Below, in pieces: positions 32,000 through 36,355 of a stretch of DNA of 64,000 bases (the stretch's first letter is position 1; each line of letters opens with the position of its first letter). Where the stretch lies: the NCBI RefSeq assembly GCF_000018945.1, contig NC_011978.1:186001-250000 (forward strand), written 5' to 3'. The notes below the pieces were generated by a model. The model searched no databases, had not been told where the DNA came from, and saw only the letters and a list, made by a program, of their open reading frames with translations. The translations under genes were made by a program, and so were the position numbers. Source of the DNA: Thermotoga neapolitana DSM 4359 (GTDB taxonomy: Bacteria; Thermotogota; Thermotogae; Thermotogales; Thermotogaceae).

Positions 32000-33142
32000 G
32001 TGAAAAAGATCGGCATCATTGGCGGTGGCCAACTCGGAAAGATGATGACCCTGGAAGCAAAGAAGATGGGGTTTTATGTGACCGTGCTCGATCCCACTCC
32101 GGGGAGCCCCGCTGGACAGGTTGCGGACGAGCAGATAGCCGCAGGATTTTTCGACTCAGAGAAGATAGAAGAACTGGTGAAAAATTCGGACGTCACCACC
32201 TACGATCTTGAACACATAGACGTTCAAACATTGAAAAGACTCTACGATGAAGGCTACAGGATACACCCTTCTCCACACATTCTGGAGATCATCCAGGACA
32301 AACTCATCCAGAAGGAGTTTCTGAGGAAAAAAGGTATTCCCGTTCCCAGATACAAACTGGTGAGGGATTTAGAAAACGACGTTAGGGACTTTGGTTTTCC
32401 TGTTGTTCAAAAGGCGAGAAAAGGAGGATACGACGGCAGAGGTGTGTTCATCATAAAAAACGAAAAAGATCTCGAAAACGCCCTGAGTGGTGAGACCTAC
32501 CTCGAGGAATTCGTTGAGATAGAAAAGGAACTCGCTGTCATGGTGGCAAGAAACGAAAAGGGAGAGATTGCGTGCTATCCTGTGGTGGAGATGTACTTCG
32601 ATGAAGATGCGAACATATGCGATGTGGTGATAGCACCCGCCAGAATAGAAGAGAAAGAGACAAAGATCGCAAGAGATATCGCTGTGAGTGTCGTGGAAGT
32701 CCTTGAAGGTGTTGGAATCTTTGGCATCGAGATGTTCCTCACAAAACAGGGTGAGATCCTCGTCAACGAGATCGCACCACGCCCGCACAACTCCGGCCAT
32801 TACACCATAGAAGCGTGTGTAACAAGCCAGTTCGAGCAGCACATAAGGGCCATCATGAACCTGCCGCTTGGCTCGACAAAACTTCTCATCCCCGCCGTGA
32901 TGGTGAACCTGCTCGGTGAAGAAGGACATTACGGAAAACCTGCTCTTGTGGGTCTGGAAGAGGCTCTGGCCATAGAAGGTCTTTCGCTTCATTTCTATGG
33001 AAAAAAAGAAACCAGACCGTACAGAAAAATGGGACATTTCACGGTGGTGGACAGAGACGTTGAAAGAGCGCTCGAAAAAGCGCTCAGAGCGAAGAAAATA
33101 CTGAAAGTCGTCTCGGAGGAGGGAGCGATGTGCCAAGGGTAG
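32000..33142 (+). CDS. purK: 5-(carboxyamino)imidazole ribonucleotide synthase PurK
   Basis: ATP-grasp enzyme of 380 residues, converting AIR, bicarbonate and ATP to N5-[14 protein letters not shown] is the N-terminal loop, [15 protein letters not shown] the ATP-binding part, and [18 protein letters not shown] the PurK signature. GTG start behind GAGGAGGG. It overlaps purE by 13 bp, consistent with consecutive pathway steps. Confidence 0.97.
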
Positions 33143-33645
33143 GAATCATCATGGGAAGTGACTCCGATCTTCCTGTAATGAAGCAGGCAGCTGAAATTTT
33201 GGAAGAATTCGGAATAGATTACGAGATTACGATCGTTTCTGCCCACAGAACACCGGATCGCATGTTCGAGTACGCAAAGAGTGCCGAAGAGCGGGGTATA
33301 GAGGTCATCATCGCAGGAGCAGGGGGAGCAGCGCACCTTCCCGGAATGGTGGCAAGTATCACACATCTTCCCGTTATCGGTGTTCCTGTGAAGACCTCCA
33401 CACTGAACGGTCTTGACTCTCTTTTATCCATCGTTCAAATGCCGGGGGGAGTTCCCGTTGCCACCGTCGCCATAAACAACGCAAAGAACGCGGGAATACT
33501 CGCAGCGTCCATTCTGGGGATCAAGTATCCGGAGATCGCAAAGAAGGTGAAAGAGTACAAGGAGAAAATGAAACAGGAAGTTCTGGAAAAGGCAAAAAAA
33601 CTTGAAGAGATGGGATACAGGGAGTATCTGGAACAGAAGGGTTAA
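33130..33645 (+). CDS. purE: N5-CAIR mutase PurE
   Basis: 171 residues, class I PurE, converting N5-CAIR to [23 protein letters not shown] and [12 protein letters not shown] hold the active-site Ser/Asp/His and glycine loop. GTG start. No other pur gene is present in the window. Confidence 0.98.
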
Positions 33646-33652
33646 TTTGTGA

Positions 33653-33658
33653 TAAAAT
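33653..33658 (+). promoter_or_regulatory. possible -10 of the hydF leader
   Basis: TAAAAT just after the purE stop; transcription from it would begin near 33665 and give a leader of about 100 nt. The -35 is poor, so readthrough from purE is an alternative. Confidence 0.4.
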
Positions 33659-33661
33659 TAA

Positions 33662-33767
33662 CTTGGAAAGCCCAATCCCACCTGAGGTGGAGGGTATCCG
33701 ACACCGAGGGGGGGGAGAACACCCCTTCGGTTGTGCGAAGGGGATTTTTCTTTATAGAGGTGATAGT
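33662..33767 (+). ncRNA. candidate structured leader (riboswitch or attenuator) of hydF
   Basis: The 122-bp purE-hydF gap holds a hairpin CCACC-TGA-GGTGG (about 33678-33690), a small GGT...ACC helix, a run of eight G (33708-33715) and a perfect terminator hairpin (33722-33743). The G run can pair with the CCCC of the terminator's 5' arm, making an alternative structure. I compared it mentally with TPP, FMN, SAM, cobalamin, purine, glycine, THF, ZTP, fluoride, preQ1 and guanidine motifs and found no match. Function and ligand are unknown. Confidence 0.5.
33722..33749 (+). terminator. intrinsic terminator upstream of hydF
   Basis: CCCCTTCG (722-729) pairs perfectly with CGAAGGGG (736-743) across a six-base loop and is followed by ATTTTTCTTT. 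It lies only 19 bp before the hydF start codon, so it gates hydF transcription. Confidence 0.85.
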
Positions 33768-34982
33768 GTGAGACTGCCGGACGCCGGTTTCAGAAGATAC
33801 ATCGTTGTTGCGGGAAGAAGGAACGTTGGAAAATCCTCTTTCATGAACGCCTTAGTTGGTCAGAACGTGTCCATCGTGAGCGATTATGCGGGAACAACGA
33901 CCGATCCCGTCTACAAATCCATGGAACTTCATCCTATCGGTCCCGTCACCCTCGTGGACACCCCTGGACTCGACGACGTGGGAGAACTTGGAAGACTGAG
34001 GGTAGAGAAGGCAAGGAGGGTGTTCTACAGGGCAGATTGTGGAATTCTCGTGACAGACAGCGCACCAACTCCCTACGAAGACGACGTTGTCAATCTTTTC
34101 AAAGAGATGGAAATTCCCTTCGTAGTTGTCGTAAACAAAATCGACGTTCTTGGAGAAAAGGCCGAAGAGCTGAAGGGACTCTACGAAAGCCGTTACGAAG
34201 CGAAAGTACTCCTTGTCTCGGCTTTGCAGAAAAAGGGATTCGACGATATCGGGAAGACCATCTCCGAAATTCTTCCGGGTGATGAAGAGATTCCTTACCT
34301 CGGTGATCTGATAGATGGCGGCGATCTTGTGATCCTCGTGGTCCCTATAGATCTCGGTGCTCCAAAGGGGAGGCTCATCATGCCTCAGGTCCACGCGATC
34401 AGGGAAGCCCTCGACAGAGAAGCCATCGCCCTCGTGGTGAAGGAAAGAGAGCTCAGGTACGTGATGGAAAACATAGGGATGAAACCAAAACTCGTCATCA
34501 CAGACTCTCAGGTGGTAATGAAAGTAGCGTCTGATGTCCCGGAAGACGTGGAACTCACCACCTTTTCCATTGTGGAGTCACGATATCGAGGCGATCTGGC
34601 CTACTTTGTGGAAAGCGTGAGAAAGATAGAAGAGCTGGAAGACGGAGACACTGTTGTCATCATGGAAGGCTGCACCCACAGACCTCTCACCGAAGACATC
34701 GGAAGGGTGAAGATCCCAAGGTGGCTCGTGAACCACACGGGAGCGCAGCTCAACTTCAAGGTCATAGCCGGAAAAGATTTTCCTGATCTTGAGGAAATAG
34801 AAAACGCAAAACTTATCATCCACTGCGGTGGATGTATTCTGAACCGTTCAGCGATGATGAGAAGGGTGAGGATGGCAAAAAGGCTCGGTATACCGATGAC
34901 GAACTACGGTGTGACCATCTCTTACCTTCACGGTGTGCTAGAGCGGGCGATTCGTCCATTCAGGGAGGAAGTGAGGGTTTGA
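33768..34982 (+). CDS. hydF: [FeFe]-hydrogenase maturation GTPase HydF
   Basis: 404 residues. The N-terminal GTPase has P-loop GRRNVGKSS (16-24), DTPGLDD and NKID; a dimerisation domain follows; the C-terminal part carries the cluster ligands CTHRP and HCGGC. HydF is the scaffold on which HydE and HydG build the 2Fe subcluster before transfer to hydrogenase. hydE and hydG are not in the window. GTG 33768 follows GAGGTGATA; an ATG-initiated frame from 33663 would translate through the terminator and is rejected. Confidence 0.96.
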
Positions 34983-36355
34983 GAAAAGAAAGAGACTATC
35001 TCGGAGAACTGGAGATAGAAGACGACGCTTACTATGGAATACACACCAGGCGAGCCCTGATGAACTTTCCACCAACTGGCGAAAGGCTCGACGAAACGTT
35101 CATCTGGGCGTACTTCATGGTGAAAAAAGCCTGCGCTCTTCTCAACACCGAACTCGGATACCTGGACGAGCAAATAGGAAACGCCATTGTAAAGGCATGC
35201 GATGAATGGGAAACGTTGAAAGAACACGTTCTGATGGATCCCCTCTCGGGTGGAGCTGGAACGTCGATAAACATGAACATAAACGAAGTGATAGCAAACA
35301 GGGCAACAGAGATACTCGGTGGAAAGAAAGGAGAATACCTCGTCGATCCCATAGATCACGTGAACTTGCACCAGTCAACGAACGACACCTTTCCAACGAG
35401 TGCGAAGATCGCCACCATCGTGAAACTGAGAAAACTCATAGAAGCGGTGATAAATCTTCAGGAGAAGATCCAGGAGAAAGAGAAGGAGTTCTACTCCATC
35501 AGAAAACCGGGAAGAACCCAGCTCATGGATGGTCCACCGATCATGCTTGGACAGGAGTTCGGTGCCTTCGCCGATGCCCTCGCAAGGGACAGATGGAGGC
35601 TCCACAAGGTCGAAGAGAGAATAAGAAGCGTGAACATTGGGGGAACAGCGATCGGAACTGGAGTTGGGGCACCGAAAGATTACATCTTGAAGATCGTGGA
35701 AAAAGTAAGAGAAGTAACGAAGGTGAAGATCGCCAAGGCGGAAAACCTCATAGACGCAACCCAAAACTGGGATGTCTTTGCGGAGGTTCACGGTCTTTTA
35801 AAATCCCTTGCGGTGAATCTCTACAAGATCTCAAACGATATCAGACTCCTTGGAAGTGGGCCAAACACGGCGATAGGTGAACTCATTTTGCCGGCGGTTC
35901 AGGCGGGAAGTTCCATCATGCCGGGAAAGGTGAATCCGGTTGTTCCAGAGTATGTGATGCAGCTCTGCCACATGGTCTTCGGTCACGACACGATACTGAA
36001 CCACACATGTGCACTCGGAAACCTCGAACTCAACCAGTTCGCCCCACTCATAGTTCATCTCACACTCAAGTCCCTCACACTTCTCACAAACGCCTGTCGC
36101 TCCCTGACGGAATACGTGGTGAACATAAAGGCAAACGAAAAGCGGTGTGAGGAACATCTCTCACGTTCTGTGTCGAACCTCACACCGCTGATAAAGATGT
36201 TCGGTTACGAGGCCGTCTCAGAAGCGGTGAAGAGGGCAAACTGGGATATCGGAAAGACTCTGGAAATTCTCTCTCGGGAAAAGAACGTTCCGATCGACGA
36301 AATAGCAAAAAAACTGGATCTGAAGAAGATGACCGGTCTTGGTTACTCCCTGTAG
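34979..36355 (+). CDS. aspA: aspartate ammonia-lyase (aspartase/fumarase superfamily)
   Basis: About 458 residues. [15 protein letters not shown] is the superfamily catalytic loop. [17 protein letters not shown] and [10 protein letters not shown] favour aspartase over fumarase, which normally reads GRTHLQDATP. It deaminates aspartate to fumarate. Start is probably TTG at 34979, overlapping the hydF stop (TTGA); no ATG or GTG fits. The gene meets gntK tail to tail with a 13-bp overlap. Confidence 0.83.

Follow-up and report, generated by a model that had tools for sequence, protein, structure and literature searches.

A conserved, covarying hairpin ahead of [FeFe]-hydrogenase maturation genes of Thermotogota as a cis-regulatory RNA with TM1266 as candidate effector

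In the pyr attenuators controlled by PyrR, a hairpin with purine-rich internal loops stands upstream of mutually exclusive antiterminator and terminator structures; the regulator may be encoded by the first gene of the operon, and its binding switches the genes off. The control of H-cluster assembly, a costly and oxygen-sensitive process, is little understood. The annotation of TM1266 calls it a 'putative regulator' of iron-only hydrogenase; its structure has been solved (2nzc), while its target is not known. Here we analyse the leader of the maturase gene hydF within a window of 64,000 nucleotides (the whole stretch of DNA that was analysed) from the genome of Thermotoga neapolitana DSM 4359, a single contig of 1,884,562 bases. 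The first-pass annotation had seen in the gap between purE and hydF a structured leader able to switch the maturase gene behind it, and the sequence features it named there, including a -10 element, a hairpin, a G run and a terminator, are all present. The leader as a whole is borne out by conservation across the phylum and beyond, by covariation and by a conserved antiterminator/terminator pair, and we regard it as nearly certain that it is a real, switching cis-regulatory RNA of hydrogenase-maturation genes.

The gene order on the forward strand is purK (32000-33142) and purE (33130-33645), both above the NCBIfam cut-off and the latter directly upstream of the leader, followed by the controlled gene hydF (33768-34982, with a GTG start at 33768; NCBIfam TIGR03918, 1.2e-161, cut-off passed) and a gene of the aspartate ammonia-lyase family (34970-36355; NF008909, 5e-182). 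The last of these is probably co-transcribed with hydF, and it is found downstream of hydF at other copies of the RNA as well. A -10-like hexamer, TAAAAT, lies at 33653-33658 (context TGTGATAAAAT), and the sequence TGTGATAWAAT is common to many other copies of the RNA, standing upstream of each. Since a search near the leader for a -35 hexamer or a sigma-70 pair found none, the putative promoter is recognised by its -10 element only. A Rex-like palindrome (TTGTG-n-CACA, often degenerate) at 33648-33662 overlaps this -10, and similar palindromes occur upstream of L082, L134, L135, L138, L140, L184, L186 and other loci, a simple pattern for them fitting 9 of 80 RNA copies; such palindromes suggest redox control at the promoter on top of control by the RNA. 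The reading frame of hydF is open in the 5' direction across the entire leader to a TTG at 33663 (33663-33767), probably by chance.

Downstream in the leader, the terminator search returned an intrinsic terminator hairpin of 8 bp with a 6-nt loop at 33722-33743 (stem 33722-33729/33736-33743), which is followed by a T run at 33745-33749, encoding the U tract, and by a Shine-Dalgarno-like GAGGTGAT at 33757-33764. This hairpin is the sole terminator-like site in 400 bp, where 0.3 would be expected, and the 161-base leader region folds better than 199 of 200 shuffled sequences (z -3.06).

The conserved RNA element occupies 33672-33718 on the forward strand, where covariance models matched it with E 4.9e-14 (R1, own genome) and with 51.7 bits, E 2.2e-12 (R3, window), the training sets of R1, R2 and R3 all including this very copy. 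It forms one compact hairpin in which P1, a tandem G·A, the 4-bp P2, a second tandem G·A and P3 succeed each other. In sequence and alignments, the 5' strand of P1, UCCC(A)CCU with A33680 bulged (33676-33683), pairs with an eight-G run at 33708-33715, which can be read directly in the sequence, as the first-pass annotation had done, and which also serves as antiterminator strand; the run is peculiar to the window strain, T. maritima-like species having five G. The conserved pairing of P2 joins GGUG (33686-33689) to CACC (33702-33705), and the final two bases of the latter also open the antiterminator. P3 is the stem-loop GG-GUAU-CC (33692-33699), whose pairs covary. Between the stems, the outer internal loop is made of GA at 33684-33685 (G in 74 and A in 79 of 81 sequences) and, on its 3' side, RA at 33706-33707, assigned from alignment base counts; the inner one is made of RA at 33690-33691 (R and A each in 80 of 81) and GA at 33700-33701 (G 76/81, A 79/81). 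Each strand thus reads CUGA-N4-RAGG, and each internal loop is a near-invariant CUGA/RAGG motif (C-G, U·G, G·A, A·R), which makes the element pseudo-two-fold symmetric. Judged from these bases, the loops would form tandem sheared G·A pairs. The hairpin CCACC-TGA-GGTGG of the first-pass annotation does exist at 33678-33690 but is not the conserved fold: it is restricted to hydF-type copies and missing from those of hydG type.

The fold was recovered unprompted as a single three-stem hairpin from an alignment of 18 copies (RNAalifold). Among 81 distinct sequences, 93.9% of the cells pair, and double-sided changes number 167 against a shuffled mean of 61, a value that 0 of 500 shuffles reach, while controls with slid partners give at most 36. 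Nine pairs show double changes, and again none of 500 shuffles matches the number of changed cells or the score. In P2, GGUG/CACC varies to GAUG/CAUC, the middle pair being GC in 48 cases and AU in 29, and the sequences of P1 and P3 vary widely among copies. The leader therefore qualifies as a structured RNA, its secondary structure being backed by covariation.

Three structures compete in the window, namely P1 with P2 (33676-33715), an antiterminator (33704-33712:33722-33730) and the terminator (33722-33743). The 5' arm of the antiterminator, CCGAGGGGG at 33704-33712, is exclusive with P1/P2 and can pair with the 3' arm, CCCCUUCGG at 33722-33730 of the terminator region, as had been proposed when the G run was first set against the C-rich arm of the terminator; the pairing is worth -20.5 kcal/mol, against -12.8 in shuffles. 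Most copies of the RNA possess both a terminator and an antiterminator. In all 58 terminator-type copies scored, the strand composed of CAYC-RAGG and the 3' side of P1 pairs with the 5' arm of the terminator, with a mean of -24.1 kcal/mol versus -11.3 in shuffled sequences and z < -2 in 56 of them; three further terminator-type loci, missed by the motif pattern, lie outside this set. In 57/57 copies, at least 7 of the eight bases that follow CAYC are paired. A GGUG mimic in the loop of the terminator might also have covaried with P2 in a three-way fashion, but this idea was set aside as only partly borne out, three or more of the four CAYC bases pairing in 30 of 57.

A second expression platform is used by one Thermotogota family, that of the Mesoaciditoga/Athalassotoga-type genomes, and by one class outside the phylum, that of G220; here the 3' strand RAGGAGG is itself the Shine-Dalgarno sequence, with a start codon a few bases on or with a short leader frame and then a terminator before hydG. 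In five Mesoaciditoga-type loci (L131, L133, L143, L144, L142) a very short frame begins within the RNA, and after it come a terminator and the main gene, an arrangement that would be a possible translation-coupled attenuator. Because two different platforms hide the same strand, formation of the hairpin probably corresponds to the OFF state. In the mechanism we propose, an effector would hold the hairpin together and so hide the 3' strand of P1 (RAGG...); the terminator would then form and transcription would stop before hydF, whereas in Mesoaciditoga-type genomes and some other bacteria the hidden strand would be the Shine-Dalgarno sequence and translation would be blocked. Without effector, the 3' strand of P1 would pair with the 5' arm of the terminator, as the antiterminator, and the genes would be read. 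Computed energies favour hairpin plus terminator in the hydF leader at 37 C (-43.4 versus -36.8); at 77 C, where the extrapolated energy model is rough, the two states are near parity in the hydF leader (-11.1 for hairpin plus terminator, -10.9 for the antiterminator) and the antiterminator is ahead in the hydG copy (-17.4 versus -15.8). Rough as they are, these predicted energies would fit a switch whose OFF state depends on an effector.

A check of hydF upstream regions in relatives had been suggested at the outset, and both conservation beyond close strains and covariation were found. Indeed, CUGAGGUGGAGG-n-CUGACACCGAGG or close variants are kept upstream of hydF in 7/7 Thermotoga, and also at L009, L010, L011 and L029, which represent other genera and families and do not have purE upstream. 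Homologues were first located by the exact pattern AGGTGGAGGN{3,25}ACACCRAGG, which matches 17 of 151 genomes, all but one of them Thermotogota, from three families (the odd match, in G121, is inside a coding sequence); the reversed control pattern gave one match, and viral contigs scanned with the exact pattern gave none. Most of the new matches stand at the start of TM1266-hydG-hydE operons and not before hydF, and one precedes a gene for a group A6 [FeFe]-hydrogenase. At E < 1e-3, covariance model R1 detects copies in about 60 of the 103 Thermotogota genomes; with the refined model R2 the number rises to 64 of 103. The strong matches lie before hydF, TM1266-hydG-hydE(-hydF), hydG, hydE or hydA, and tblastn of TM1266, HydG, HydE and HydF against the downstream DNA shows that nearly all head hyd genes, the exceptions being a copy cut by a contig end (L141) and one between hydA and an ABC transporter (L142). 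The RNA would govern the whole maturation set and not hydF alone. Weak R1 matches at L146-L148, L150 and L151, with hyd genes absent nearby, were taken as chance, as were R2 matches in G179, G291 and G315, genomes that have no TM1266 or HydG.

T. neapolitana itself carries a second copy, at C1:1269082-1269132 on the reverse strand (L081:7083-7133), before TM1266-hydG-hydE and an alanine/glutamate racemase-like gene. At this copy the 3' arm of the terminator resembles the Shine-Dalgarno sequence of TM1266. Fervidobacterium-type operons (L089, L099, L108, L088, L090) have an SsuA/NMT1-like ABC transporter (permease, ATPase and binding protein) between hydE and hydF, and G069 (L142:505-2860) has a similar transporter behind hydA, preceded by an RNA copy of its own. 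Outside Thermotogota, the RNA directly precedes TM1266 in MAGs of Ignavibacteriales and Neomarinimicrobiota, in G138 and G147, and at 17/17 loci fetched with R3 from the phylum to which G379 belongs and from the class of G220, both genomes included. Diverged CUGA/RAGG hairpins were recognised by eye before TM1266 at nine further loci (L205, L207, L214, L217, L218, L221, L222, L226 and L228), only three of which (L228, L221, L217) reach E < 0.06 with R2. In the class of G119, R3 gave no match at E<=0.003, although L217 and L222 show the diverged motif by eye.

The TM1266 family (TIGR03959/PF21699) exceeds its cut-off in 92 of 390 genomes, and every leader-bearing Thermotogota genome has it (64/64), including four (G049, G056, G070, G080) in which the leader stands before hydG and TM1266 lies unlinked elsewhere. 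Among hydG-bearing genomes the leader occurs in 68 of 88 with TM1266 and in 0 of 58 without (Fisher p 7e-24, relatedness ignored; outside Thermotogota the zero reflects partly phylogeny and partly the sensitivity of the model). TM1266 is present without leader in three Thermotogota (G048, G059, G099), and about 20 TM1266-bearing genomes outside the phylum show the diverged motif by eye only or none. In genus g29, leader and TM1266 are both retained by G066 (L145), where they lie behind a tRNA gene; its five sister species (G064, G068, G075, G077, G079; L232-L236) have hydG behind the same tRNA-like sequence with neither leader nor TM1266, which may be the result of one contiguous deletion.

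TM1266 is the first gene behind most copies of the RNA, so that, as in PyrR-type systems, a regulator would be encoded in the operon it controls. Its predicted structure (pLDDT 95.5) is closest to the crystal structure of TM1266 itself, 2nzc, followed by the C-terminal domain of NikR, with TM-scores of 0.82-0.86 for the latter. TM1266 is a stand-alone ACT-like (NikR C-domain) protein without DNA-binding domain, and a 'regulator' of this kind would make sense if it acted on RNA. The pseudo-two-fold symmetry of the element likewise speaks for TM1266, since such symmetry is expected for an oligomeric binder. As the likeliest effector, this ACT-like sensor encoded directly behind most copies would act on the operon that contains it and, in trans, on hydF, hydA and further genes. 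The genetic association argues, with a modest lean in its favour, for our best reading, in which TM1266 (or its ligand) would make the hairpin more stable and keep the hydrogenase-maturation regulon repressed; that TM1266 itself is the binder of the RNA seems slightly favoured, and the fuller proposal of an RNA-binding repressor that recognises the pseudo-symmetric CUGA-N4-RAGG hairpin in several phyla, acting by attenuation or by masking of the Shine-Dalgarno sequence, is evenly balanced. Against TM1266 as effector it must be said that TM1266 and hyd genes are co-inherited, and that a ligand from the maturation pathway would give a similar association.

The first-pass annotation had allowed for either a riboswitch or a protein-controlled attenuator, and of the two the co-occurrence with TM1266 favours the protein. 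The hairpin could nevertheless be a true riboswitch whose two tandem-GA motifs themselves bind a small molecule or a metal, with TM1266 merely a controlled gene; iron, an H-cluster precursor, an amino acid or a redox cofactor would be candidate ligands. The bases of the two GA motifs hardly vary, nor do the U·G pairs beside them, one aptamer joined to two expression platforms is a riboswitch-like design, and an SsuA/NMT1-like transporter, whose substrate may hint at the ligand, belongs to the regulon. However, the RNA is missing from every one of the sampled hydG-bearing genomes that do not have TM1266, its copies outside Thermotogota are tied to TM1266, and a single unbranched hairpin with no visible junction or pseudoknot would be unusual for a ligand aptamer, all of which leaves this explanation tentative. 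Improbable, by comparison, is recognition by some other protein, for example a TM1266-like paralogue or a further factor: many leader genomes encode a second, sub-threshold TM1266-like protein (in T. neapolitana below the family cut-off at G000:C1:501514-501732, reverse strand, with similar places in many Thermotogota), and in Fervidobacterium-type genomes it lies inside the hyd cluster on the opposite strand, but it is TM1266 proper, and not the paralogue, that stands directly behind the RNA in several phyla. It is scarcely credible that we see an ordinary purKE terminator with an internal hydF promoter and chance hairpins, for although the terminator could also end purKE transcripts, purE being directly upstream in Thermotoga, the element precedes hydF and hydG with entirely different upstream genes and covaries strongly.

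Published expression data bear on TM1266 and its operon. In T. neapolitana under CO2, TM1266, hydG and hydE rise 5.98-, 6.39- and 7.52-fold, respectively, and hydF just 1.28-fold (PMC7039931); the operon behind the second RNA copy is hence strongly regulated, the two leaders need not respond alike, and promoter control may add to the effect. A transcription-start study of T. maritima annotated its RNAs with Rfam 10, and the passages of its text available to us do not mention the element (PMC3636130).

The window and 14 related loci were compared with Rfam 15 at gathering cut-offs and gave no match for the element, in agreement with the initial impression that it fits no known class; matches at E<=10 were weak, were judged meaningless and lay far below gathering scores, e.g. 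a plant-virus element. In the open-access literature we found no description of the RNA or of a target of TM1266, and an earlier report may exist elsewhere. Within these sources novelty appears to lie in the RNA class, in its regulon and in the proposed pairing of protein and RNA, whereas the type of mechanism, an attenuator or Shine-Dalgarno switch, is already known. The RNA offers TM1266 a concrete candidate target and defines a regulon of hydE, hydF, hydG, hydA, TM1266 and the ABC transporter. As a regulatory RNA class it would be one that Rfam 15 does not contain, and it would be a point at which biological hydrogen production by Thermotoga is controlled; if the proposal is true, a new regulatory RNA class and a new family of RNA-binding proteins would together set the synthesis of the [FeFe]-hydrogenase assembly machinery.

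Among known systems, kink-turn RNAs resemble the hydF leader in that a short helix is flanked by tandem G·A pairs, but the alignment, with GA/RA internal loops in two symmetric CUGA/RAGG motifs and no 3-nt bulge, led us to reject a kink-turn. With riboswitches acting through a terminator or Shine-Dalgarno sequence (Rfam cis-reg) it shares an aptamer-like core, two platforms and conserved internal-loop bases, while differing from them as a single unbranched hairpin outside the Rfam families. NikR, the nickel-responsive DNA-binding repressor, is matched by TM1266 in its C-terminal regulatory domain; unlike NikR, TM1266 has no ribbon-helix-helix DNA-binding domain, and its proposed target is RNA. 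From the pyr attenuators the hydF leader differs in its consensus, in its ACT/NikR-C-like candidate protein, the binding of which is putative, and in its hydrogenase genes; yet it is like these protein-bound anti-antiterminators in its layout of a hairpin with purine-rich internal loops ahead of exclusive structures, in its candidate regulator encoded in the operon and in a predicted OFF state on binding.
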